From Bryobacterales bacterium (lineage in GTDB: Bacteria > Acidobacteriota > Terriglobia > Bryobacterales > Bryobacteraceae), in the NCBI GenBank assembly GCA_003167275.1, contig PMTT01000317.1, positions 1 to 50,674 of the forward strand: DNA of 50,674 nucleotides, in the 5' to 3' direction. A program made the position numbers and the translations under genes. Numbering within the stretch: position 1 is the first letter of the stretch; every line of letters starts with the position of its first letter. The notes beneath the pieces were generated by a model, which did not search any database, was not told the origin of the DNA, and saw only the letters and a program-made list of their open reading frames with translations. Below, piece after piece: positions 26,853-46,479 of the stretch.

Positions 26853-27356
26853 TTATTGTGAAGTATCGCTTGCGGGTGCGGCTCCCCGAAATAGAACCTG
26901 CAAACTCGGGGATCGTGGCGACCGCCAGAGCCGATTGAGCAGCCGGGCGATCACCACATCCTGTTCGGCTTCCGGCAGCGCTCCCAACGACGTCCCCGGT
27001 TCGCAGCGCTCCAGAAGCATAGCGCCGACGTCGTCGTCGGCTTCCAAGAGCCGTACCGTTGGGTGTCCGTCCCAGAAGCGCAATCCTTGAATTTCATGCG
27101 CACCCTCCATGTGCGGCATGGCAAGTTTCAGGATTGCAGTTGCCCCGTCTGCGCACTCCACCGGCGCGACCCAGGCGCAGCTCACCTCGGCCCAGTCGAT
27201 CGGCGGCCCAAGCGATATCGACCAGCGCCGCTCCAGATCTCGGAGGGTAGATGGCAGCCGCCGGAGCCACGCTGCGCGCTCCGCCGTCTTGCTGCAATTT
27301 GCGGCGAGTTGGGACGGGATAGGGATCGGAAGCACGGGTTCTTGCCCAACCATCAT
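26853..27356 (-). pseudogene. Aminoglycoside/hydroxyurea phosphotransferase-like, C-truncated
   Basis: The frame LRRLPSTLRDLERRWSISLG, ECADGATAILKLAMPHMEGA, FWDGHPTVRLLEADDDVGAM and LLERCEPGTSLGALPEAEQD is the N-lobe of the APH(6)/Hur kinase family: substrate-binding start, ATP-binding Lys (ILKL) and hinge (LLERC). The frame stops after about 168 residues (LWRSPRSPSLQVLF...), before the catalytic HGDxHxxN loop and the DFG-like Asp. A C-terminal half of some 130 residues is therefore missing. It cannot be an active resistance enzyme. It is divergent to the mcrB region. Confidence 0.75.
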
Positions 27357-27529
27357 TGTCCACGGTTTCGCGACGCGGCTCACTGTGTTGGGCGCTTCGT
27401 TCCCCACCCACGTCCCGTTTGTGGCGCCGGGGCTGGCACGGGAGACCTCTGACTGAGTATCAACCGCTGGATCAGCAGCCACGATCCGCAAGCGAGCCCA
27501 TAGCTGTTGCCGCGAGCTACAATGCTCAT

Positions 27530-27660
27530 TCCATGCGCTCTTCGAGATCGGTCGCGACTACTACCGGCTTCAAGGCCAGCCCCTCACGCCGGCGAAGGAC
27601 CTCAGTGCGATACCGGCGAGAGAGTTCCTCGCTTATCACGCCGAGGTGAATTTCAGATAG
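27530..27660 (+). pseudogene. 3' remnant of an unknown gene just before mcrB
   Basis: In one frame the segment reads ALFEIGRDYYRLQGQPLTPA then KDLSAIPAREFLAYHAEVNF and a TAG at 27658-27660. It looks like the C-terminus of a real protein, but it has no usable start codon: the frame is open only from about 27455 after a TGA. It abuts the mcrB ribosome-binding site and may mark the left breakpoint of the inserted McrBC module. Confidence 0.4.
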
Positions 27661-27663
27661 GAC

Positions 27664-27668
27664 AGAGG
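27664..27668 (+). promoter_or_regulatory. Ribosome-binding site of mcrB
   Basis: AGAGG within ACAGAGGATCACA precedes ATG 27675 and supports that start over the longer frame from 27507. Confidence 0.6.
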
Positions 27669-27674
27669 ATCACA

Positions 27675-29612
27675 ATGGACGACGAAAGAGGGGTCCTGAT
27701 CGAAGGTCTCACGACCGAAGAAGATGCTGGCGAGGCTGACATCACGCCACCTGCTGGTCGCAGAACCTGGATTTTCCAGGCCAACCCGAAGCTCTTCAAC
27801 ATTGATGACGCCATCGCGCATCTTTCCGAGATGACGTGGTCGGTTTCCGCTCATAAGGAGCTGATCTCAACAGGCGACAGCGTGTTCCTATGGAAGAGCG
27901 GTCCTGAGGCAGGGGTTATCGGCGAGGCTACCGCTCTGGCAGCTCCGTCGGTGAGCGAAGAGTTAGGAAACGAGAACCAGTTTGCGCTCGACCAGGAAAA
28001 GTTCAGAGGTCTGCAGCTCCGCGTGCGACTGCGAATTGACGAGGTGTTCATGCCGTCATTGTCACGCGACACCATGAAAGCCGACGTGAGGCTGGCTGAG
28101 CTGTCCATCCTGAAATTCGCGCAGGGCACGAATTTCGTGGTCACGCCAGATCAGACCGCGGTAATTCGCGAGTTGCTGGAGATGCATCGTAGCGGCGAGG
28201 ACGAGATCCCGGGCGGGGCCGGGGCGATCGCGCCGGGTAGCGGCACCCGGGTTTGGGCCTACGCCCCAGGCCCCAAGGCCCAGTTCTGGGAAGAGTTCTA
28301 CCGAGAAGAGATCATGGCCATCGGCTGGGACGATCTTGGTGATCTCCGGCAATATCCAGACCACGATACGGTGGCAAAGAAACTCATCGACGTCTACCAG
28401 TTAAAGGGCTACCCGATTAACGACGCCCGTGCTTGTTTCAACTTTCTCCATGTCATGAGGCCCGGCGATAGGGTAATCGTGAAGAGGGGCCGTGATGAGG
28501 TTGTCGGATACGGCGTCATCACCGGCGAGTACGAGTACCGACCCGAAAGGCCGACCTATCGCAATGTGCGGCGGGTTCGCTGGGAGCGCCGAGGCAACTG
28601 GAAATGCAAGCCCGTGTTCGCCGTAAAGACTCTCACAGACTTTACCTCTTACCCGGACACAGTTCAGTACCTGACCGAGTTAATTGGGGTGTCGGAGGCG
28701 CCATCGGCAAGTTCCCCCGCGCCTACCCTCCCTCCATATTCAACTGAGGATGCCCTCAAAGGAGCGGCCTTTGACAAATCTGAGTTTGAGACCATTCTGG
28801 ACCTCTGGCGAGCTAAGAAGAACGTTATCATCCAAGGCCCGCCAGGCGTGGGCAAGACCTTCATGGCGCGCAGGCTGGCCTATGCATTGATTGGCCATGA
28901 ACTTCCCTCTCGCGTTGCCATGATCCAATTCCATCAGAGTTACTCCTACGAGGACTTCATTCAAGGCTACAGGCCCACTGAGAACGGCTTCGGTCGAAAG
29001 GATGGTGTTTTTGTCCGATTTTGCAAGCGGGCTTCCCTCGATCAAGACTTGCCCTACGTGTTCATTATTGATGAGATCAACCGGAGCAACCTGAGCAAGG
29101 TCTTCGGCGAGTTGCTCATGCTGATCGAATCGGACAAGCGGGGCAGCAAATACTCGGTGGCCCTGACGTACTCCGCGTCGGAGGAAGAGCAGTTCTATGT
29201 GCCGTCCAACGTGTATCTTCTCGGCATGATGAATACCGCCGACAGATCACTCGCACTGGTCGATTACGCGCTTCGTCGTCGCTTTGCGTTCCTGGAACTG
29301 AAGCCCTTGTTCGGATCCAACGCGTTCATCGATTATCTGGTCGGCGCCGGTTCCGTTGCGTCCTTTGCCGGGGCAGTTTCGACGCGGTTGCAGGCGCTGA
29401 ACCAGGCGATCGCAGAAGATCAAAACTTTGGTGCTGGTTTCATGATCGGGCACAGCTACTTCTGCGGGACTGGGGTGGCCCTCACTGAAAAGGTGTATAT
29501 GGACGCCATTCGCCATGAAATCCTTCCACTCCTCACGGAGTACTGGTTCGATGATCCGGAGCGCGTGGCGCACTGGAAGGACAGATTGGCCGCGAACTTC
29601 GAGCCAGCGTGA
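27675..29612 (+). CDS. mcrB: McrB-like GTPase with N-terminal EVE modules
   Basis: A 645-residue AAA+ protein of the McrB branch, the motor subunit of a Type IV restriction system that cuts modified DNA. The N-terminus is an EVE (PUA-like) module: RTWIFQANPKLFNIDDAIAH, TGDSVFLWKSGPEAGVIG (about 28-160). A second PUA-like stretch follows (about 190-310: TRVWAYAPGPKAQFWEEFYR, PGDRVIVKRGRDEVVGYGVI). Both probably read the modified base. The motor carries GPPGVGKT (388-395), VFIIDEINRSN (462-472), the McrB signature MNTADRS (519-525) and the arginine finger region LRRRF. Its stop overlaps the mcrC start (TGATG), so the two are translationally coupled. EVE-McrB fusions are known; two successive modules are less usual. 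Confidence 0.93.
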   Translation: MDDERGVLIEGLTTEEDAGEADITPPAGRRTWIFQANPKLFNIDDAIAHLSEMTWSVSAHKELISTGDSVFLWKSGPEAGVIGEATALAAPSVSEELGNENQFALDQEKFRGLQLRVRLRIDEVFMPSLSRDTMKADVRLAELSILKFAQGTNFVVTPDQTAVIRELLEMHRSGEDEIPGGAGAIAPGSGTRVWAYAPGPKAQFWEEFYREEIMAIGWDDLGDLRQYPDHDTVAKKLIDVYQLKGYPINDARACFNFLHVMRPGDRVIVKRGRDEVVGYGVITGEYEYRPERPTYRNVRRVRWERRGNWKCKPVFAVKTLTDFTSYPDTVQYLTELIGVSEAPSASSPAPTLPPYSTEDALKGAAFDKSEFETILDLWRAKKNVIIQGPPGVGKTFMARRLAYALIGHELPSRVAMIQFHQSYSYEDFIQGYRPTENGFGRKDGVFVRFCKRASLDQDLPYVFIIDEINRSNLSKVFGELLMLIESDKRGSKYSVALTYSASEEEQFYVPSNVYLLGMMNTADRSLALVDYALRRRFAFLELKPLFGSNAFIDYLVGAGSVASFAGAVSTRLQALNQAIAEDQNFGAGFMIGHSYFCGTGVALTEKVYMDAIRHEILPLLTEYWFDDPERVAHWKDRLAANFEPA

Positions 29613-30715
29613 TGGGAATCCCGGTTGCCAACATCTACTATTTGCTTTGCTACGCCTGGGATGAATTTGCACCTCGCCAGATGGCTAATGTCGCCGCGGA
29701 AGAGTTCCCTGACACGCTGCATTTGTTTTCCCACCTCTTGCTCATCGGGCTCCTAGCGTTACACCGCCGCGGACTGGAAACCGGCTACATCCCGATTGAG
29801 GAGCCGACCAGCACAGTACGTGGCCGTATTCTGATCGGGCCGACAATCCGGCTCCTTACCGCGCAGCCTACAAAAGTTCACTGTGCGTTCGATGAAATGA
29901 GCGCCGATGTCTTGAGCAATCAGATCCTGAAGGCGACCTTGATGATGCTCGTGGCGGAGCAGGGGCTCGACCGTCAGCTCCGCGCAGAGCTACGCCATGC
30001 TCTGGTCCTATTGCCCGGCGTGCGCGACATCGAACTGAATGCCAGGGCGTTCCATCAAGTACGCCTGCACCAAAACAACCGTTTGTACTTGTTCCTGATC
30101 AGCATCTGTCGGTTTTTCTACGAATCCCTGGAAGCGCAGGACCGGCTTGGGCAGTACCGGTTTCGAGATGTGGATCGCGATGAGAAACGTATGCGGCGGG
30201 TGTTTGAGAAATTCGTCCGCAATTTTTTCTCCCGTCGTCAACGGGTGTTCGGCGTAAGAAAGGAACGGCTCAACTGGCTCGCCTCGGCAATAGGGGACTC
30301 CGATTTGAAGTGGCTGCCGCAGATGGAGACGGACGTGACACTGCGCTCGGCGGATCGGACCATCATCATCGAATGCAAGTACACCGAGTCGCTGTTCCAG
30401 AACCGGTTCTTTTCCGAAAGACTTCGCTCGGCCCACCTATATCAGCTTTGTGCGTATTTGCGAAATCTGGAAGGCGGTGCGGAACCGGATCGGCAGGCTG
30501 ATGGAATTCTGCTGTACCCAACCGCTGGCGCCGAGCTTGACCAGTCCTACTGGCTCCACGGGCACCGAGTCCGTATCAAAACCGTCGATCTAAACCAACC
30601 AACCCTGGACTCTCATCGAGAAAGCGCTGCTGTCGATTCTCCAACCCATTCCCGCGGGATGAGGGTTGCGTTTGCCGGCATTGTTGGCGAATCATGCCCG
30701 TATGAAATCATGTAG
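29612..30715 (+). CDS. mcrC: McrC-like endonuclease subunit
   Basis: A 367-residue McrC protein, the nuclease partner of McrB. The N-terminal half is the typical McrC scaffold: NIYYLLCYAWDEFAPRQMAN, STVRGRILIGPTIRLL and CAFDEMSADVLSNQILKATL. The PD-(D/E)XK site is near the C-terminus: QMETDVTL (D241) and TIIIECKYT (E254, K256), followed by RSAHLYQLCAYL. ATG 29612 overlaps the mcrB stop by one base; a GTG three bases earlier is possible. McrC binds the McrB hexamer and cuts when GTP-driven translocation stalls. A third gene follows after 11 bp. Confidence 0.92.
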   Translation: MGIPVANIYYLLCYAWDEFAPRQMANVAAEEFPDTLHLFSHLLLIGLLALHRRGLETGYIPIEEPTSTVRGRILIGPTIRLLTAQPTKVHCAFDEMSADVLSNQILKATLMMLVAEQGLDRQLRAELRHALVLLPGVRDIELNARAFHQVRLHQNNRLYLFLISICRFFYESLEAQDRLGQYRFRDVDRDEKRMRRVFEKFVRNFFSRRQRVFGVRKERLNWLASAIGDSDLKWLPQMETDVTLRSADRTIIIECKYTESLFQNRFFSERLRSAHLYQLCAYLRNLEGGAEPDRQADGILLYPTAGAELDQSYWLHGHRVRIKTVDLNQPTLDSHRESAAVDSPTHSRGMRVAFAGIVGESCPYEIM

Positions 30716-33550: not shown

Positions 33551-34068
33551 GGTCTTCGGCGCAATGCAGGCGGTCATACTGGTTGGGATTGCCGCTGGGG
33601 TGATGCGTCTTTTGGTGGGGCCATTGTGGTCGGCGAAAAGGGTGAGATCGGTCCTGCCAGGCGCCCTGATCCCGACGCGGACCCCAACAAGGACTGGTCC
33701 AGCGACGGCTCCGGCTGCCGCACCAGATACGAAACTAGTTTTGAGGACTTTCGCAGGCTGGTTCGCCGGTCAAGGGCTCGAAACGGTGCTCCGCGCGGAG
33801 GATGGTCACCCTGTAGGGCTTCGCAATCTACACAATCGAATCCAGATTGACCCACCGAAACAACGGAGCATCTACGGATTGGCGATGGACCTCTGGCGAT
33901 GGTCCGCTTAAGCACCGCCCTCCCATCCCACGCAGCGCCATACAGAAACGGTGAAACGCCGCTGGATCCAACGTGCCGGACTCTCACAGGCGTTTCTAAA
34001 ATTTCGGCGAACAGCCTCACCCTCTCTCGGACGATCAGACGCCTTCGAGACGCCGGTCAGTGGCGATC
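33551..34068. other. Stretch without a gene
   Basis: Frames on both strands here (for example 33574-34020 minus and 33501-33911 plus) are low-complexity Arg/Ser/Pro-rich shadows of each other with no family features. I see no repeat or RNA gene. Confidence 0.5.
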
Positions 34069-34364
34069 ATGAGGGCCGCGATCGACGCCAGGGTCAGTAC
34101 GGACGACAGAAGGCCGCATGTCTGAGAATTGAACGACTTCGCCGGCAATCAAGGGTGGCCAGTAGTGGAGACCTACGAGGACGTGATCATCGCCAAGTCC
34201 AGCTGGCCAGGATTAAACCGCCTCATGAAGGACGCCAGGGCAAGGAAATTGACTGCCTGTTGGTCTGGAAATTGGATCGGGTTGGGAGGTCCCTGGTAGA
34301 CTGCCTGAACAACATCAAAACGCTGGAGGACTACTGGGGAATGGCGCGCGGGGTTCGCCCATAG
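34069..34364 (+). pseudogene. Serine recombinase (resolvase) remnant
   Basis: It begins MRAAIDARVSTDD (the canonical resolvase start has Tyr-Ala-Arg-Val-Ser with the nucleophilic Ser). An in-frame TGA follows, then ELNDFAGNQGWPVVETYEDV, then GLNRLMKDARARK. After a shift of frame at about 34245 it continues as EIDCLLVWKLDRVGRSLVDC then LNNIKTLED. This is the catalytic N-terminal domain of a Tn3/invertase-type recombinase with at least one stop, one frameshift and no C-terminal DNA-binding part. It is a scar of an earlier mobile element next to the defence genes. Confidence 0.78.
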
Positions 34365-34582: not shown

Positions 34583-36340
34583 TCAGAACGGCTCATCGTA
34601 GAAGGTCCAATCAGCGGGACGAGGGATCCTGTCCGAGCAGGAGTCACAGAATCTTGTCTTGAATTCCCGGTCGATGTTATCAAGCTCCCGACCACCCAAA
34701 GCATACCTATGCTGATCACAGAAGATGATCTTGGGATTCGCCCTCTCCAGTGCGAGTCGATCCAGCATAGGATCGCCGCCCGGATGCTTCATGACCACCT
34801 TATGCTGGCAATCGATCAGCACGCGCGTCGGATCGTCGTCCTTTATGGCTAGCTCGATATAGCTCGCCCAAGGTTCCGTCGTCGGATCGATGCCGGCGGA
34901 AGTGAGGATATTGTTATGGATCTGCCGGCGAGTCGTTTCGATGTCCCCGTCGAATTTTGCTCCGTTCTTCCGGGCCACCGCGCGATCCATAAGTTCCTCG
35001 GCGTTCTTTCGATACGGACTATCTTCCGGCCATTGCTCGATAACCGACCGTACCCACTTGAACATCTCTCCGCCGGTGTCCCGCTCAAGCGTTCTCGCAT
35101 GCATCACGGCATTGAACAGCTCATCCATGGATTCATTCTCGGTCGCGATGGCCGCAGAGAACTTCAGAAGGCTGAAGGCGGACTGGACATACTGAAGTCC
35201 CGCGTCCTGGAAGCCGCAACGATCCAGAAGATGGGCAAGCGTACCAATCGCAATTGCAATTTCCGCGATCGGCCGGGATGTCACCCAACGGAAGCGGGAT
35301 TTTGCCGTGGCTTGCGCGAGCCTGAGCGACTGATTGTATCTCCGGTGGGCAACGAGTAAGCTCTGCTGGAGTTGAAACGAAAGTACTGCCAGCCAGACGG
35401 GATCATCGCCCCTCATCATGTGGGCGCGCCAGCTCATCAGCAGCCCGAACGTCTTATGAACCGCCACTCCAAGCTCGGCCGCCTTGCGGGTTATCTGCGC
35501 AAAGAGGTGAAGGTGTTTTGGGTCGCGCTTCGCTATCCGGCACAGTTCCAGCGCTGTCGCGAGTTTCTTGTCCGCGACTCGCGCCTGGGGTACGTCGGAT
35601 TTCGTCATTTGGACCCATTCCAGTTCGCCCGCCTGAAAGATCGCGTTGAAATGAACCTCAACATAACCTGCCGCGCTCGCGCGGACTGCCACTTTGGTAA
35701 TCGCATCTATGGCCCCGGCAATATCACCGCCCTTCCGCTGGAGGAACGCGGCCTGCAGTTCGAGGTGGAAGCCCTTTTCGTGGAGATCTTCAGCCACCTC
35801 GCTGATTCGCTCAATGGGCTGCGATGCCATAGCATCGACGAACTCGATGGGCTTGGTCCCCAGCAGTATGCGGCTTACAACAACCACTTGCGCCTTCATC
35901 AAATCCCGCAAAAAACTTTCGAATTGGTCCGGAAGGATGTTTGCCGTCGGAATCCGAACCGTCAGGCTTTTCGTCCGCCCCGGCGCTAAGGCCTCCAGAA
36001 CTTTCTGATCAAGCTGGATAGCGCTCCAGAACAGCTTCTTGGCCTCTACGTCGGCGTGAAAAAGGAATGTTGGTTGTCGGAGTTGGCGGGCGAGATAGTC
36101 TGCAGAGTCCAGCTCCAATTCCTGTGATATGAACGTGCCGTCCGCAGAATACGCCGTTTGCCGCGAGCCTTTGAGCTGGCCGTTAAAGAGGAAACCGGTG
36201 CTCTCACCGTTGCGGAACACCTCTACAACGTGGTCCCACCCGTAATCGCGCTTGCTCCCGTTTACCGACCACTCGGCAAATACGGCTTGGAAGATCGCGT
36301 CCGCTTGGCTGTCGGTGATGTGTTGTTCTGGCCGTTTCAC
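34583..36340 (-). CDS. DUF4365-domain nuclease-like protein with helical body
   Basis: A protein of about 585 residues. The N-terminal 120 residues are DUF4365: ITDSQADAIFQAVFAEW, KRDYGWDHVVEVF and FNGQLKGS, where D42, E46 and Q61-x-K63 (numbered from the TTG at 36358) fit a PD-(D/E)XK-like site. Then a long alpha-helical repeat body (TPR-like) covers about 170-520. The C-terminus has CDQHRYALGG with a later CDSCSDRIPRP, a likely zinc-binding knuckle. DUF4365 domains occur in bacterial conflict systems. A TAA lies immediately upstream of the frame; TTG 36358, TTG 36349 or GTG 36340 (MKRPEQHIT) are the possible starts, and I chose 36340. The next gene on the same strand is the STAND NTPase, 1 kb further up. 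Confidence 0.8.
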   Translation of the reverse strand: MKRPEQHITDSQADAIFQAVFAEWSVNGSKRDYGWDHVVEVFRNGESTGFLFNGQLKGSRQTAYSADGTFISQELELDSADYLARQLRQPTFLFHADVEAKKLFWSAIQLDQKVLEALAPGRTKSLTVRIPTANILPDQFESFLRDLMKAQVVVVSRILLGTKPIEFVDAMASQPIERISEVAEDLHEKGFHLELQAAFLQRKGGDIAGAIDAITKVAVRASAAGYVEVHFNAIFQAGELEWVQMTKSDVPQARVADKKLATALELCRIAKRDPKHLHLFAQITRKAAELGVAVHKTFGLLMSWRAHMMRGDDPVWLAVLSFQLQQSLLVAHRRYNQSLRLAQATAKSRFRWVTSRPIAEIAIAIGTLAHLLDRCGFQDAGLQYVQSAFSLLKFSAAIATENESMDELFNAVMHARTLERDTGGEMFKWVRSVIEQWPEDSPYRKNAEELMDRAVARKNGAKFDGDIETTRRQIHNNILTSAGIDPTTEPWASYIELAIKDDDPTRVLIDCQHKVVMKHPGGDPMLDRLALERANPKIIFCDQHRYALGGRELDNIDREFKTRFCDSCSDRIPRPADWTFYDEPF

Positions 36341-36358: not shown

Positions 36359-36840
36359 TTATGCCAGATTGCGCGATCACGGCATCACTGGTAGGTTGCA
36401 TGCGGTCCCCACCAGAATCAACAACCAGTTCTCTCTAGTGTCACCTTCTTCGATATTCGTTCGCCAGACACGCTGAGACAAAGCGTTTTCAAAGTTGGCC
36501 AGAACGGCATTCAGGGAGATCACCTCCAGCGAGTCCCCATCGCTCCAAGGAAGAGGAAACGGCGCCGGCGGCCAGTCCGTCCCAAAGCCTCAGACTTTGG
36601 GAACAGCGATGGAGAGCCGCGTAAGGCGCGATTTGGCAATGGGCGAGTGGGTGGTTTCGGGAGGGGTACTTTCGGAACACTTCACGTCAGCCACGCGATG
36701 GGTCGAACGGCGCCATCTTGCAACCTTTGGTCCGGACTGTTCCTCATACCGGCTGAATCGTCCGCCGACGAACCGGGAGTACCGCGATTATCAGCCGCTC
36801 TCGGGAAGAACAACGGGACACGCTGCCCGTTCGTTTCGGC
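36359..36840. other. Stretch between the DUF4365 gene and the SDR remnant
   Basis: No gene. It contains a small inverted repeat, TCCCAAAG (36580-36587) and CTTTGGGA (36595-36602) with a 7-nt loop, which looks like a third REP-type family. The plus frame from 36495 that leads into the SDR remnant is low-complexity and not protein-like. Confidence 0.5.
36580..36602. repeat. Small REP-like inverted repeat
   Basis: TCCCAAAG-CCTCAGA-CTTTGGGA, a perfect 8-bp stem with a 7-nt loop, preceded by GCCAGTCCG. There is no T-run. It resembles other short palindromic elements in the window but shares no sequence with them. Confidence 0.55.
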
Positions 36841-37238
36841 CCTGTGGCGGCGACTCGGCGTCGAAGTTCGCGCTAGAAGGGATGGCCGAATCGTTGCGCC
36901 TGGAGGTTCGGACGTTCGGCATCCGAGTTGTGATCATCGAACGCGGCGACACCAAAACCGAGATCACCCATAATCGCAAGGATGCGGAGGCCGCCACGAG
37001 CCAGCAGGTGTACCACTCGTTCTCCGCCGCGCGGAAGCGTACGGCGAGCGACGAACAGAACGGGACGGGACCGGAGGGAGTTTCGAGGTTGTTGGGGCGG
37101 ATTGTGAATACTCCGAACCCCCGGCTGCGACACACGATTGGCCCACCTGCTCAGCGCGCGGCCGTCTGGATGAAGCGGCTATTGCCGAACGCGGTCCTCG
37201 AGTATGGGATGCGGAAGTACTACAGGCTGGGCGGATAA
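36841..37238 (+). pseudogene. Short-chain dehydrogenase, N-truncated
   Basis: The recognisable part starts at SASKFALEGMAESLRLEVRT (catalytic-helix region; the catalytic Tyr that should precede Ser-Ala-Ser-Lys is replaced by Asp-containing unrelated sequence) and continues GIRVVIIERGDTKTEIT and a C-terminal AVLEYGMRKYYRLGG. The Rossmann N-terminal half with the NAD(P) site is missing. The long frame from 36495 is a chance extension. It is a deletion remnant lying between two defence-type genes. Confidence 0.72.
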
Positions 37239-37397: not shown

Positions 37398-40300
37398 TCA
37401 GCGTAAGCTGGCGTTTAGAACAAAGGCCCTGAGATGACGGCTGGAGTTGGAAAGGAACGCCGCCTGTTTATCAAGTGTTTGTTGAGCCTCAATGAGCGAC
37501 GCGCACCTCCGAGTCTTGCTGCGCGGATCCTTCGTATCCCACTGCGGGCACGCGAACCACCCGACGAGATATAAGCCATGGCCGAAACCCGTTTCTCGAA
37601 GATACCGTCCCGCGAGCTGGGCATGCATCGCGGTTTTCAAGTCGGGGTTCCAGACGCCTTTTACCTCGATGATTACCGTTACCTTAACCCAAATATCAGG
37701 TTCCGAAGTTGGAACTGCGACAGTGACATGAATATCGGTCCGCTCTCCCGGCGCCCCGCCCATGGGACGACGAATCTCCACCTCACGGTTGATGACCACA
37801 GCCCTATCTTTCAGGTCCCGATCGAGATGTCGTTTGACATAATCCGAGAGAAACGCCTCATCTTTGGGTCTAAAAATCGGCCGCTTCTTACCACTGTCTG
37901 GGTCCACAAAAGGCTCGACATCGCTCCATAGTTCAGCGGCTGCCGGAGTTTCGCCTTGAAAGGATTCTTGAAGCCGTCCCAAAGACTCCACCAGTACATC
38001 AAGAAGATCGGACCCGTTCCGAATAAACCGTGCTGCCGCGCTCGAAATACTTCGAAGGAGATCGGCCGGCGCAAACGGAATCCATGTGTTGCGGCGCGCG
38101 AGTTCCTCGGCAGTCTTCAAATGCCAAGGCACCTCGGCCAACAGCGGGCGGGATTGTGCAATTTGGCGCAGCGCAATGCAAGCCTCTGGCGTGGCGCGAT
38201 AGGCGAGGCCCCGAAGAATCATGCTCACGGCTAGTGGGATCTCCCCCTTCTGATCCTCCTCGTTTTGGTTTTCGTCCTGATCGTGCTTCCCGACGACGAA
38301 ATGGAGACGAGAAGGATAGAGCCAAAGAAAGAATTCGGCCACGTCTTCGGCATCCAGTTTCAGCAGGAACTCGAAACTTCGGAACGGGTCGATCGACTGA
38401 AGGCCGGCGAGCGCCGACCTGGCAAAATCGTCGTCCGCCTGAAAGACGGGCCAGACTATGTTCCAGCCTGCGTCCGAAGTGTGCGCGATCAGCTCAATGG
38501 CCGTGCCGAGCGTCTGTTCCTGCATCCGTTCGAAATGGGTCTGCGCTCGCTGGAGTAAACCTTGGGCCCATTTGCGCGTGGCGGCGTCCTCTCGATCCAA
38601 CAGTTTGGCCAACAGGTGCCGGTAGGCCGTCGGTTTGAGGCGCCCGCGCTGCAACCGGCTTCGGAGAAGGTCGGCGATCGCAGAATTCCAGAAGCTGTCG
38701 AGGTGGTGCAGCACCAGCAGTCCCGCACGATCATTTTCGCCGTCGATGATTTCATCAAGGGTTTTCAAGAAATTAGCCGGGGACTGTTGGTAGGCTGTCT
38801 CCACAATCCGAGACTCTGGATTAGGCAGCCCGGACGAGGACCATTCCAGGACCACAATCGGAACCCACCGCTCCCAAGTCTCCTGATCGAGCTGCCTAAA
38901 CTGAGACGGAGCTTCTTTTTCGATCAACGTGAGAGCGCTGTGGGCTGCAAGGGCGTAGTAGGGGAACTGTCCGTCTCGCCACCAGTGTCGATCGTGTCGA
39001 TCGGATCCGAACGTCGTGCGAGTCAGATAAGTCTCGGCCGATGCCAGCACTTGACTACGTGTTAGCTTATCGAGTTTGCCCCAGCCAGGAAGCGGTTCCG
39101 CATCGGAACGCTCGCCGGAAATCTGGCCGAGGGTCAACTCCCAAACCGAGAAAAACGTGTTCGGTTCTGGGGCCTTCAGTGCAGTTTGGAAGGCCGCTTT
39201 GTCAGGGGGCCCCGACGGTTCGCTCTTTTCGGTTTCATATTGCCGGTGGATCAGAAAGAAGGTGTTCTTTTCCCGCTCCGCTTCCGGACTCCCTAGCGTC
39301 CTAACCGCAATGAAAGGAGAAAGTTCTCTGGAAAGGACGGCATTTCGCACGGCCGTGCGCAGTATCGCGTCAAACGTGTCTACCGCCTCAGGGTCTAGAC
39401 AGCGCACAATGACGAACGCAAGGCACTTCTGAATGTTCTCGTTCGTTGAGTCCAGTTCACCTAAAAGCCACGGAACATCGATCGGCCGAAGAGATACGGC
39501 ATCCATTAGGATCAAGGCCCCATGAAGATGGACCGAAATGAAGGGGTACAAGGCCCTAGCGAGACGCTGGCGGCGCGCTTCGGATGCCAAAAGCTGAGTG
39601 GCGAATTCGGGTATATCTAAGGAGTAGTTCCAGTACGACACCAGAGCCCTGGCCAAAGCCGCAATGACTTCCGGGGTTCCAATCTCCTGGAGCGCTCGCC
39701 CCAAAATATTGGACGCGATCTCTCTGAGGGGCTCAGATTCACGTGAAGGCCCAACGGTCTCAGCCCACCGGAGCGCAGCAGGAAGATCTTCGCTCTGGAC
39801 GGCCGCACCAGGGTCGGACTTCAAGAAGTGCCAATAGCTTCCTAATAAGGTCCGCCGTTTCCGAGGCGTCAAAACCGAGAACAGTTCCGCTCCCGTCAGG
39901 TGATCGGGCCAAACAGCCTGAAGACCGTAGCCCTTCAGCTCGTCGTCTGGGTCATCCCCGGACAAGCCAAGAACAAGCGGCCTAAGGGCTGCTCGGGCCT
40001 GAGAATCGCCGCTCCGCGCGACCGCTCCGGCCGCCGCTCTACGCACAAGAGGCGGCTGGCTAGGGTCCAGGGCGATGTTAACGAGATCAGAATGGGGTGC
40101 CTGTAAGTTGCAGGCGTCCGCTATGCACACGGCTGCATGTCTCGCGAATAGATTGTGGGCCGTGTCGCGAAGGTACGGGCTCAGGACCGCATGAAGTTCT
40201 GGAGAATTCAAGCGTGCGTATAGTGGCCGTAGTTCCCGGTCATCGAGGAGCTGAGCGGTATCAAAAGAAAGCAAGAGCTTCTCGGCAAGTTCTGCGCGCT

Positions 40301-41615
40301 CAGCGTCCGACGTAGACGTGAGATCGCTTCGCAGCAACGTTTCCGGGTCGGTCTTGATCAATTCCCGGAAGACGTCTGGCTGTAGGCTGGCGAGCCAAGC
40401 TCCGGTCTCGCGCAACTGCGGAATCACCTTCCCCGAACCGTCGGGATGGAAAAGGAAGCTCAACGCCTTTTTGGAGGGCAATTTCGATTCATGGATATGG
40501 CGAGCTGCCAGAAATTCGGCATACGATTGATGGCTCCATCCCAAGCGCTCTGGGCCGCGCGAGTTGAATAGCCCAGTATCGAGCGTTTCTAGGAGTGCCT
40601 CTCGGGTGACCGTCGTAAGCGTGGCATCCGCCCCTTCACGACCGCCGACAAGCTCGTCCGTCGCCACATCTTCAGGCGGCTTACCGCGGTACAAACCGTT
40701 CCAGATTGCGTACCTGTTGCAGAACATGGTGACCGCCGCGATACGGCCGGCCACGGTGAGGCGCTGCGACGGCGTCAAGTCCCCAAGCGCCCCAGCGTCG
40801 CGGCGACTCTCGCTCGCTTCCTCGGCCAAGCAGCGGCACCCTTCCAAATAGAGAGCCGCCCTGCCCCTCGGAAGGGATTGGCTCTTGGCGTAAATATCCA
40901 TGAGAAATCGAAGCGTGACCGGCCTATTCGCCAAGGGCGCAATCCCGGCCGAGCGAATCGCCCCGAGAAATTTGGCGGGATCGATTCCGGCAGTACTCGC
41001 AGCCAAGATCACGTCCTTCTTGCGAAGGGGCACGAGTTCAAAAACCCCCACCCTGCCCGGGCCCCATTTCTCCCGCAACGTTGCCTCAAGACCAGCCGGC
41101 CAATCGGCCGTCCGACAGGCGATCCGCAGCCGTAGTCGTCCGGCATCCAGCTCGCGGATTTCCGCCCGCAGCACCCGGGAAATGTTGTCGATGCGGAGCT
41201 GACACTCATCCAAACTGTCCAAGAAGAGGTGCAACAAGCCTTCACCGCATTTCCAGCGTTCTATGGTTGGCGAATTAAACACCTTAGCGGCCAGATGGTG
41301 GTCAGTCGAAAACTCACGAAGGTCGGCCCGAACGAGACAATCCCGAGTGCCCGCCACGCGACGCTGCATCGCCTCCCACTCCTGTTCCAGAGTCGTCGAC
41401 TTGCCGCTTCCAGGCTCCCCTAGGTGCACCAAACAATGATAATGATATTGCTCCATGGCCTCAAAAGAAGCCACGTGCTTGGCGTAATGACGGCCCCACT
41501 CTGAATCTGGATCAACCAAGAATCCTTCGTCCTCCAGAGAATAGTGACCGTCGCGCGAGCACCAATAACGCTTCCAGTCGTAAAGAGGCTTTGCCATGCG
41601 TAAATCGCTCGCCAT
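37398..41615 (-). CDS. STAND/NACHT-like NTPase with C-terminal PD-(D/E)XK-like domain
   Basis: A 1405-residue protein. A P-loop at LGEPGSGKST (65-74) and a Walker B-like LLHLFLDSLDEC (127-137) define a NACHT-type NTPase. RIACRTADWP and LGWSHQSYAEFLAARHI are typical post-Walker and winged-helix motifs of NACHT proteins. The middle 900 residues are helical repeats, the usual sensor part. The C-terminus has TDIHVTVAV (D1294) and VTVIIEVKGVWN (E1317, K1319), then GLYLVGWFACPQW, a PD-(D/E)XK nuclease-like layout with the effector unusually at the C-terminus. It would act as a triggered nuclease in phage defence. ATG 41615 is used; the Met at codon 7 is possible. The DUF4365 gene lies downstream on the same strand, with an SDR remnant on the opposite strand between them. 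Confidence 0.82.
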   Translation of the reverse strand: MASDLRMAKPLYDWKRYWCSRDGHYSLEDEGFLVDPDSEWGRHYAKHVASFEAMEQYHYHCLVHLGEPGSGKSTTLEQEWEAMQRRVAGTRDCLVRADLREFSTDHHLAAKVFNSPTIERWKCGEGLLHLFLDSLDECQLRIDNISRVLRAEIRELDAGRLRLRIACRTADWPAGLEATLREKWGPGRVGVFELVPLRKKDVILAASTAGIDPAKFLGAIRSAGIAPLANRPVTLRFLMDIYAKSQSLPRGRAALYLEGCRCLAEEASESRRDAGALGDLTPSQRLTVAGRIAAVTMFCNRYAIWNGLYRGKPPEDVATDELVGGREGADATLTTVTREALLETLDTGLFNSRGPERLGWSHQSYAEFLAARHIHESKLPSKKALSFLFHPDGSGKVIPQLRETGAWLASLQPDVFRELIKTDPETLLRSDLTSTSDAERAELAEKLLLSFDTAQLLDDRELRPLYARLNSPELHAVLSPYLRDTAHNLFARHAAVCIADACNLQAPHSDLVNIALDPSQPPLVRRAAAGAVARSGDSQARAALRPLVLGLSGDDPDDELKGYGLQAVWPDHLTGAELFSVLTPRKRRTLLGSYWHFLKSDPGAAVQSEDLPAALRWAETVGPSRESEPLREIASNILGRALQEIGTPEVIAALARALVSYWNYSLDIPEFATQLLASEARRQRLARALYPFISVHLHGALILMDAVSLRPIDVPWLLGELDSTNENIQKCLAFVIVRCLDPEAVDTFDAILRTAVRNAVLSRELSPFIAVRTLGSPEAEREKNTFFLIHRQYETEKSEPSGPPDKAAFQTALKAPEPNTFFSVWELTLGQISGERSDAEPLPGWGKLDKLTRSQVLASAETYLTRTTFGSDRHDRHWWRDGQFPYYALAAHSALTLIEKEAPSQFRQLDQETWERWVPIVVLEWSSSGLPNPESRIVETAYQQSPANFLKTLDEIIDGENDRAGLLVLHHLDSFWNSAIADLLRSRLQRGRLKPTAYRHLLAKLLDREDAATRKWAQGLLQRAQTHFERMQEQTLGTAIELIAHTSDAGWNIVWPVFQADDDFARSALAGLQSIDPFRSFEFLLKLDAEDVAEFFLWLYPSRLHFVVGKHDQDENQNEEDQKGEIPLAVSMILRGLAYRATPEACIALRQIAQSRPLLAEVPWHLKTAEELARRNTWIPFAPADLLRSISSAAARFIRNGSDLLDVLVESLGRLQESFQGETPAAAELWSDVEPFVDPDSGKKRPIFRPKDEAFLSDYVKRHLDRDLKDRAVVINREVEIRRPMGGAPGERTDIHVTVAVPTSEPDIWVKVTVIIEVKGVWNPDLKTAMHAQLAGRYLRETGFGHGLYLVGWFACPQWDTKDPRSKTRRCASLIEAQQTLDKQAAFLSNSSRHLRAFVLNASLR

Positions 41616-44235: not shown

Positions 44236-46479
44236 ATGTTCATGGATTCAACAGTCGCCGCCCAGATCGATGAATGGCGAGAGCAACGAAATTGGAGTCG
44301 CAACGAGCTCGCAAAGCGCGCAGGCATAGATCCCGGATACCTTAGCCGGATCCTTCGTGGGAAACGGCCGAGCGAGGTGGTCCTCCGCAAGATTGCCAAG
44401 CCCTTGCAGTTGACTGAAGAGCAGTCGGGGCTGTTGCTTGCTGCTGCCGGATATGCTGTGCCGACCGTGGCCGAAATTTTGCCAAACGACCAGCGGGCCA
44501 CTATCGAAGCCGCAATTCGCCGAATTCCTGGCTTGACCGTCGAATTTCGTAGTCGTCTCGCTGTTCAACTCGTTTCTGTCGCCACCGCAACCGAAGCGCT
44601 TTGGCACAAAGCCCACGATCTCGGCGACCCCATTCCGCATGTCCCCGAGCACGGCCCAGAGCATAGCCTCGCTATGCTCTCGCGCCTGGTCGAGTTCTTT
44701 CCCGAAGGCTTGGCCCGGCTCGCGAGGCGTAGAGAGATCAGCCTTGCGCTCCTGCTCCAATCGTTGTGGCTGCACGACGTCGGAATTGCGGCCCACGCAG
44801 GGGCGGATTCCGCGACCCATCGCGGTGAGCAACGCAAAAAGGACCTCTATTCGGATTACCGAACATACCCGAAGAGATCCGAGAATTACGTTCGCGAGCT
44901 TCATTTGGAACTCGGCCTATCGAAAGAAGACGCGCGTGTATTGGAGAATCTGTGCAAGCACCATCGCGAGTCGGAGAACCTCAGCGCAGTTGCGATAGAG
45001 GAAGGCAACGGCGTTATACCAGCTCGCGAGCAGAAGGTCCTGATAGCATTGTTGCGCATTGCCGATCTGCTGGACGTCCGCCCCGAACGCGTTGCCACCA
45101 AGCAGAAACTGGACGAAGTCATGGCCAACTGGCAGGTTATGCTGGAGGTTCGCGGGGAATGGTTGCGTAATCTATTCATCGCGCGCTTGCGCCGGGAGCG
45201 ATCCACGCTGGTCGCCGAGATCCGATATGATCGCGGCTGGGGCCAAGACAGCATAAACACCCTGCTGGAGGCGGTCGTTCGGGAACTGCAAGGCCAGATC
45301 AACCTAGTGAAAGACATCCTCGTCGACGAGCCCGACTGCATACTCCTCAACGTGCGCACGGATGTCAGCCCCGACCCGTTGCCCACCGAACTGAAAAGCG
45401 CTATGGAGAAAGTTCGACGCAGCCTGGGGCGCTATCCGAGCGCGCGCCACTTTATGGACCGTGTCTTGGATAGCCTCGATCGTCTGCTCAAGTTTGGCAA
45501 GTACGATGATGTCCGAGATTATGTCGAGCGCGAACTCAGGGCCAGCATCGGCCTGCGGCCCTATCACGTTCAGGTGCAGAACCTGTGCGACGACCTCGTG
45601 CAGATCCTCAAAGGCGACTATTCCGAGGAGAAGCAGCTGCGCGTTATCGAGCAGGTCTCCCTCGTCTACCGGAATCACAAGGAGAAGGCGTTTGCCGAGA
45701 TCGCCGCAGCAGCAAAAAGAGAATTTTGCGACCCTAATGCCAGCTTTCTGTTGTTCGGTTATAGCGAATGCGTCCTTAAGGGGTTGGGCGCGATCGAACA
45801 GTCCGTCCGAAGATCAGTCGATGTTACGATCTTGGAGTTCCGTGCCAAGTCGCTCTATGACTCTGATTTTAGGCTCCAGTACTGCGACGGTGCTAATTTC
45901 GCACTGGAGGTCCGACGCCTGGGATACGAAAGGATTTGGTTGGCACCTGACGCTTCGGTTACTGCCATCTTCACATTGCCCCAACGTCTCGCCAGCCACG
46001 CAAGCCCGGGTTCGCTGCCGAGACGCCCCACCCACCTGATCGTCGGTGTCAACGCCATCACTCCGGACGATCCGAGGCGGTTATCGGAAGAGGCTGAGGA
46101 CACCGCCACGGTGCGCGAACCCGCTTATGGCGCTTACAGCACGACGGGCTACCGGACCATCATTGAGATGGCCAAGAAGTACAAGGCGCACGTTTATGTG
46201 CTGGCTGAGTCCGCCAAGATTCGGCACGGGGTCGAAGAGACCGCAAAGGAGCGCGTCCACTGCTGGTTGGCGCAGGATGAACGTTGGGCCGAGCTAATGC
46301 GCGACGGAATCCGCATCTTTAGCCCTCTCGATGACCAGATCGATTCACACGACATCTCCTGGTTCATTACGGACCTCGGTCGGGACAATCCCGCAGACCT
46401 TAGAAGAAAGCACCCCGCAAGTTTCAGCGCTCTGCCGACAGCGTTGCATGCGGCTGATGGACTCACCCGGGCGGGTTAG
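44236..46479 (+). CDS. XRE HTH - HD phosphohydrolase-like - eIF2B/R15P isomerase-like fusion
   Basis: A 747-residue three-domain protein. Residues 8-65 are an XRE-type helix-turn-helix: ELAKRAGIDPGYLSRILRG. Residues 115-330 form an HD-type metal phosphohydrolase-like domain: HGPEHS (H139, H143), WLHDVG (H180, D181), KHHRES (H242, H243) and IADLLDVRPER (D277). Residues 500-720 match the eIF2B/MtnA/ribose-1,5-bisphosphate isomerase fold: FLLFGYSECVLKGL, VDVTILEFRAKSLYD, HLIVGVNAITPDD, GYRTIIEMAKKYKAHVYVLA then ESAKI, and a final DSHDISWFITDLG. The HD domain may cleave a nucleotide; the eIF2B-like part may bind or convert a phosphorylated ribose or nucleotide. Transcription control by the HTH is likely. 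I know of no described system with this layout. Starts 44236 or 44242. Confidence 0.82.
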   Translation: MFMDSTVAAQIDEWREQRNWSRNELAKRAGIDPGYLSRILRGKRPSEVVLRKIAKPLQLTEEQSGLLLAAAGYAVPTVAEILPNDQRATIEAAIRRIPGLTVEFRSRLAVQLVSVATATEALWHKAHDLGDPIPHVPEHGPEHSLAMLSRLVEFFPEGLARLARRREISLALLLQSLWLHDVGIAAHAGADSATHRGEQRKKDLYSDYRTYPKRSENYVRELHLELGLSKEDARVLENLCKHHRESENLSAVAIEEGNGVIPAREQKVLIALLRIADLLDVRPERVATKQKLDEVMANWQVMLEVRGEWLRNLFIARLRRERSTLVAEIRYDRGWGQDSINTLLEAVVRELQGQINLVKDILVDEPDCILLNVRTDVSPDPLPTELKSAMEKVRRSLGRYPSARHFMDRVLDSLDRLLKFGKYDDVRDYVERELRASIGLRPYHVQVQNLCDDLVQILKGDYSEEKQLRVIEQVSLVYRNHKEKAFAEIAAAAKREFCDPNASFLLFGYSECVLKGLGAIEQSVRRSVDVTILEFRAKSLYDSDFRLQYCDGANFALEVRRLGYERIWLAPDASVTAIFTLPQRLASHASPGSLPRRPTHLIVGVNAITPDDPRRLSEEAEDTATVREPAYGAYSTTGYRTIIEMAKKYKAHVYVLAESAKIRHGVEETAKERVHCWLAQDERWAELMRDGIRIFSPLDDQIDSHDISWFITDLGRDNPADLRRKHPASFSALPTALHAADGLTRAG

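Follow-up and report, generated by a model that had tools for sequence, protein, structure and literature searches.

The window, a 50,674-nucleotide stretch of DNA from a Bryobacterales bacterium (Acidobacteriota), carries a gene for a DUF4365 protein beside one for a STAND NTPase. This raises the question of whether the two genes make up a single defence system and, if they do not, what the DUF4365 protein does by itself. An earlier note on this DNA had remarked that the genes share a strand and are separated only by a remnant, and had left it between one two-gene system and two independent ones. The arrangement is as described: the STAND gene lies 1057 bp upstream of the DUF4365 gene on the same strand, and the remnant between them, a short-chain dehydrogenase, is on the opposite strand. 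The features of the locus are collected in Table 1.

Table 1. Features of the DUF4365 gene and its surroundings; residue numbers count from GTG 36340 unless stated otherwise.
Feature	Position in window	Strand	Basis
Whole gene: DUF4365/DREN nuclease, helical body and C-terminal Cys/His module	34583..36340	-	ORF, dN/dS, start alignment
DUF4365 (DREN) PD-(D/E)XK nuclease domain, residues 14-139	35924..36301	-	PF14280; DREN-APAZ profile matches
Predicted catalytic-site residue D36 (D42 in the 591-residue numbering), equivalent to D41 of NbaDREN	36233..36235	-	Alignment; PMC12205087 (accessible part)
Q55-L-K57 (Q61/K63 in the 591-residue numbering), equivalent to Q60/K62 of NbaDREN	36170..36178	-	Alignment; PMC12205087, PMC10810196 (accessible parts)
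Helical TPR-like solenoid body, residues ~164-458 (confident ~185-460)	34967..35851	-	AlphaFold model, fold comparison
C-terminal Cys/His module	34586..34918	-	Ligand conservation
Candidate zinc ligands C511, H513, C541, H544, C565, C568	34637-34810	-	Invariant in 7/7 rows
NACHT/STAND-HEAT protein, EruA-like, separate gene	37398..41615	-	Pfam, NCBIfam
Short-chain dehydrogenase remnant between the STAND and DUF4365 genes	36495..37238	+	PF00106, C-terminal part only
EVE-McrB-like gene, then McrC, frames overlapping by four bases; ~4-7 kb from the DUF4365 gene	27507..30715	+	Pfam, NCBIfam
DUF4062-like N terminus, matching PDC-S60 over the first 185 residues	22637-24367	-	Defence-candidate match
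HTH and HD-CE domains in a 747-residue protein; weak resemblance to capH and CARF-HD models	44236-46479	+	Model matches
Partial aminoglycoside/hydroxyurea phosphotransferase-like ORF	26853-27491	-	Pfam
Partial resolvase	33951-34364	+	Pfam

In a two-gene system, the STAND NTPase would sense infection and the DUF4365 protein would serve as its nuclease effector. The common strand, the proximity and the defence-type character of both genes fit this arrangement, but their distribution does not. Of 257 genomes from the order, 19 encode the STAND protein and three the DUF4365 protein, and the window genome is the only one with both; the combination was dropped on this count, which leaves the one-system option of the earlier note unsupported. 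Six other genomes contain some DUF4365 gene together with a STAND match, always on separate contigs of fragmented assemblies. The search for plasmid relatives of the STAND protein found 16 records, and in all three of those read no DUF4365 gene is annotated within ~6 kb; likewise, no STAND neighbour is annotated at the loci of the archaeal homologues described below. Furthermore, the dehydrogenase remnant intervenes, and residues 59-1384 of the STAND protein align end to end with EruA, the NCBIfam model of a single-protein antiphage system (E = 3.3e-72; 244.2 bits, short of the equivalog cut-off of 1000). The C-terminal 300 residues show a weak match to PDDEXK_3 (E = 0.1), and the STAND protein may thus carry a PD-(D/E)XK nuclease of its own. 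Likeness to the EruA and HyoA NACHT antiphage proteins, for which the literature search returned no antiphage paper, extends to the STAND gene only, not to the DUF4365 gene. We regard the two-gene system as largely refuted and hold the chance of it to be very small.

The DUF4365 gene is an intact frame of 585 codons from GTG 36340 to 34583. An alternative upstream start in the same frame, TTG 36358, would give 591 residues; the GTG is preferred because the homologue in genome G123, which is 38% identical, begins with ATG at the same MKRPEQH. Comparison with the copy in genome G274 over 560 codons gives a dN/dS of 0.157, with a value of 0.064 for the nuclease part, indicating that purifying selection has acted on the protein and excluding a chance ORF. 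Between these two copies the nuclease part is 82% identical at the protein level, the body 73% and the tail 63%. The homologous block comprises the gene and ~30 bp upstream and ends there, the pattern expected of a one-gene cassette. A promoter and terminator scan gave counts close to those of shuffles. The protein has no family name in NCBIfam, neither it nor the related Halomicrobium protein matches PHROGs, and PADLOC yields weak matches only, confined to the nuclease part.

Pfam recognises DUF4365 (PF14280) in residues 20-145 of the 591-residue form, with 46.1 bits against a cut-off of 24.3 (E = 6.7e-12). A family profile of 17 domains, with the window sequence first, retrieves the solved DREN-APAZ chains 9qbq, 9qbp and 9jsb from the PDB sequences (E = 5.3e-20, 3.2e-19 and 2.8e-17). 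The DxGxD...QxK motif is present as D32-Y-G34-W-D36...Q55-L-K57; among 32 aligned DUF4365 rows the Asp is conserved in 32, the Gln in 31 and the Lys in 32. The spacing of D36, Q55 and K57 equals that of the proven catalytic residues D41, Q60 and K62 of NbaDREN, of which the D41A variant is inactive (PMC12205087, accessible part). Because the profile finds the solved DREN-APAZ chains and the spacing of the three residues is kept, the window's DUF4365 is, judged by sequence, the DREN nuclease domain of SPARDA, and nuclease activity of the protein is well supported. In the accessible parts of other papers, the inactive version made of a DUF4365-APAZ protein is a Q62A/K64A mutant (PMC10810196), a toxin with the DxGxD...QxK motif loses its toxicity on mutation of three of the four motif residues (PMC11297309), and DUF4365 is placed in the Mrr subfamily of RecB-like nucleases (PMC6299218). 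The view of DUF4365 as a conflict-system nuclease domain with a D...QxK pattern held up well. Residues D42 and K63, which the earlier note had singled out for mutation, are indeed present, but these numbers count from the TTG; in the 585-residue protein they are D36 and K57, and the Gln is Q55.

DUF4365 ends at residue 139, and the body and the Cys/His tail do lie outside it, as had been proposed. The AlphaFold model, built from only three sequences, is confident for residues ~185-460 only, all of them in paired helices; the N- and C-terminal parts have pLDDT values below 50. Fold comparison of the body returns TPR and 14-3-3 solenoids, with the TPR chain of LGN as the best match (4.8 Å over 230 residues; Z = 14.9, near the warning level of the tool, where helical repeats can match by chance). 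Kinship with 14-3-3 or LGN was set aside, and we read the matches as reflecting a common arrangement of helices. The window protein has no match among the Pfam TPR models, and TPR_2 in the Halopenitus relative (E = 0.0013) is below the cut-off. The TPR-like middle of the earlier note thus survives as a helical, solenoid-like model without a Pfam match; "TPR-like" is a fair description of the predicted body and no family assignment.

The last 111 residues carry C511-x-H513, C541-x2-H544 and C565-x2-C568, three pairs spread over 58 residues. All six positions are invariant in the seven aligned tails (the window, two other bacterial and four archaeal), which is more than chance would give, and the second pair of the archaeal tails reads C-x-H. 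Because the terminal parts of the model are of such low confidence (pLDDT 38 when the tail is modelled separately), residue conservation is the basis on which we consider the tail a probable zinc module. The CCHC zinc knuckle is spaced C-x2-C-x4-H-x4-C. The ligand spacing found here rules it out, so that the Cys/His cluster previously remarked upon is real and its label, "zinc knuckle", gives way to a six-ligand module of another kind. The tail matches no Pfam family, a likeness to NADH dehydrogenase NDUFS6 among PDB matches (E = 0.29) was taken as chance, and the module has no name in any family library searched. It is conserved between bacteria and archaea and small enough for mutational testing.

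The archaeal tails come from a tblastn search with the tail alone, which returns nine haloarchaeal plasmid records from Halopenitus, Halobacterium, Halomicrobium and Natrinema (E = 2e-5 to 1e-2), two of them versions of one accession; a tenth record is a single non-significant place in Shinella. Eight of the nine archaeal features are annotated as DUF4365 proteins and one as hypothetical. These members were drawn from a plasmid collection, and their plasmid location is therefore given by construction. In hhalign, archaeal and bacterial full-length proteins are collinear over 541 columns (probability 98.7, E = 3.3e-16). Because of this collinearity and the six invariant ligands, we conclude from the alignments that the nuclease stays combined with the body and the tail in two domains of life, bacteria and archaea. 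The occurrence of such a three-part protein in both a bacterium and salt-loving archaea suggests that they share a defence gene against invading DNA that has received little study.

Like SPARDA DREN-APAZ proteins, the window protein has an N-terminal DREN/DUF4365 domain with the D-(18)-Q-x-K spacing and a profile match to the solved chains; unlike them, it continues into a helical body and a C-terminal Cys/His module. The PADLOC DREN-APAZ model matches residues 29-118 only, and the body is all-helical in the AlphaFold model. No short Argonaute is present among the neighbouring ORFs scanned, and Piwi (PF02171) finds no match in the window genome, a search that a divergent PIWI could escape. Bacterial-plasmid proteins annotated as "tetratricopeptide repeat" or "DUF4365 domain-containing" likewise have DUF4365 at the N terminus and a TPR body after it, but those of Leisingera, Curtobacterium, Enterobacter, Paraburkholderia and genome G459 are without the C-terminal Cys/His pattern and were excluded as zinc-tailed members. 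The Enterobacter and Paraburkholderia proteins, annotated only as TPR, are encoded on conjugative plasmids (L077:5992-7953 and L078:5983-7932), and similar DUF4365-TPR proteins are listed for Klebsiella. The eCIS-associated toxin EAT16, also a DUF4365 protein, has the DxGxD...QxK motif, and its mutations abolish toxicity; it differs in being tied to a contractile injection system and in its second domain (PMC11297309, accessible part). DUF4365 as a nuclease and DUF4365-TPR proteins in annotation are already known. The zinc-tailed group common to Acidobacteriota and haloarchaea has no name in the libraries searched; no paper title in the accessible part of the full-text literature searched concerns this layout.

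We somewhat favour the reading that the window protein is a single-gene accessory defence. Its DREN domain, a PD-(D/E)XK nuclease, would cut DNA and/or RNA using D36, Q55 and K57. The solenoid and the six-ligand zinc module would take the place of Argonaute and APAZ in SPARDA and sense an invader-derived ligand, either protein or nucleic acid. Sensing would bring DREN domains together and switch on indiscriminate cutting, upon which the infected cell would arrest growth or die. The defence reading is supported by the catalytic roles demonstrated elsewhere, in the accessible parts of the papers cited above, for D41/Q60/K62, for Q62/K64 and for the DxGxD...QxK toxin. We infer zinc binding by the tail and sensing by body and tail, and also activation through clustering, the last by analogy with NbaSPARDA, in which DREN by itself is monomeric and inactive and becomes activated by tetramerisation within an Argonaute filament (PMC12205087, accessible part); the outcome would probably be abortive. 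DREN activation has so far been explained, in that same source, inside guide-RNA-driven Argonaute filaments, and a conserved single protein with its own candidate sensor would show guide-free triggering of the same nuclease. The wider proposition, a one-protein immune family spanning Acidobacteriota and haloarchaea that combines direct sensing of infection by the solenoid and a new six-ligand zinc module, and DREN clustering, with SPARDA-like collateral destruction of nucleic acid, all without Argonaute or guide RNA, we consider conceivable but somewhat doubtful.

The gene is rare and accessory. Searches of the 257 genomes with the full protein and with the tail profile find the same three carriers (the window genome, G274 and G123), and a PF14280 search, which misses the window's own and the G274 copies, detects the domain in at least 37 of these genomes. 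Over 396 genomes sampled evenly across the phylum, the protein search yields five matches including the window, the other four being weak or partial. A combined archaeal-plus-bacterial tail profile matches four of 337 genomes (the window, G635, G610 and, marginally, G391), and a scan of genome contigs with two short patterns returns the G123 contig alone, labelled there as an Acidobacteria MAG. Weak matches in G565, G370, G572 and G391 were dropped as DUF4365-only, in an off-target frame, broken or marginal. The G610 protein (682 residues, DUF4365 at 1.8e-13) is a probable member of the zinc-tailed group: the profile detects its tail at 4.4e-4, with five of the six ligands discernible by eye, and the full-length hhalign comparison aligns only the nuclease part. 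It matches phrog_22932 over residues 11-151 only. Phage records hold no match to the window protein, the archaeal protein or the tail, and scans of viral contigs likewise gave none.

This distribution bears on the idea of a cellular enzyme for DNA repair or recombination. A DUF4365 protein has been likened to Holliday junction resolvases (PMC11297309, accessible part); presence in three of 257 genomes of the order, in one of 19 genomes of the G610 genus, and in plasmid and conjugative contexts makes it most improbable.

Several copies look inactivated, although assembly error is possible. In the G274 copy the reading frame breaks around codon 120-140, and the gene is truncated where the tail begins, with IS21-type genes adjoining the cut; the nine bases CCATATTGC flank both sides of the break. 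The G123 copy is missing ~50-60 residues and then continues in another frame, and in G635 the tail piece alone remains, with one ligand changed as judged by eye. Apparent inactivation of this kind fits a costly or only sometimes useful gene. The G274 and G123 copies and the G635 fragment would also suit a solitary toxin or remnant without an immune role, retained or lost through drift, or one to which its plasmid owes addiction, as would the rare, patchy occurrence and a Fic/Doc neighbour in Halopenitus. We consider this improbable in view of the low dN/dS, overall and in the nuclease part, and of the conservation of catalytic residues and ligands from bacteria to archaea.

Comparison of the neighbourhoods reveals no conserved partner gene and places recognised defence genes beside three of the six apparently intact loci, namely those of the window, Halobacterium and G610. 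At the window locus these are McrBC and the EruA-like and PDC-S60-like genes. At the G610 locus, the same strand carries an ApeA-like HEPN gene (PDC-S58) ~0.9 kb further downstream, and a TrwC relaxase is encoded on the same contig. The Halobacterium gene is preceded at a distance of 127 bp by a PDC-S65-type SIR2 gene, and the genes on its downstream side encode a cytosine methyltransferase, a PLD protein, DrmB and a helicase-related protein, as in DISARM. The other three loci weaken the defence reading: Halopenitus has the Fic/Doc gene nearby and no recognised defence system, and none is found near the Halomicrobium and Natrinema loci. It is weakened also by the G274 and G123 copies, which are surrounded by housekeeping genes. 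The earlier note had held that homologues standing alone among such genes would speak against its proposal; this is the situation of G274 and G123, but both look broken, and the G610 and Halobacterium homologues adjoin recognisable defence genes.

The same neighbours are compatible with the main rival, restriction-like action on invader DNA alone. Here the zinc module and solenoid of a stand-alone enzyme would read foreign DNA, DREN would cut it, and the cell would survive. The PD-(D/E)XK fold and the presence of McrBC and DISARM-type genes accord with this, and Cys/His modules often bind nucleic acid. No known DNA-reading domain is detected in the window protein, however, and the DREN domains studied cut non-specifically or kill (PMC12205087, PMC10810196 and PMC11297309, accessible parts). 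We judge restriction-like action unlikely and retain the single-gene accessory defence as the preferred reading.

Some further details of these loci are worth recording. In the window, the partial phosphotransferase-like ORF and the partial resolvase indicate traffic of mobile elements around the island. In G610, a 294-residue ORF (L075:7438-8322, minus strand) without a family match lies before the ApeA-like gene and overlaps the DUF4365 gene at its 3' end; it is a possible local partner. In Halobacterium (L065:3523-7822, plus strand), the DUF4365 ORF is extended by ~180 residues that have, by eye, the look of a transposase tail.
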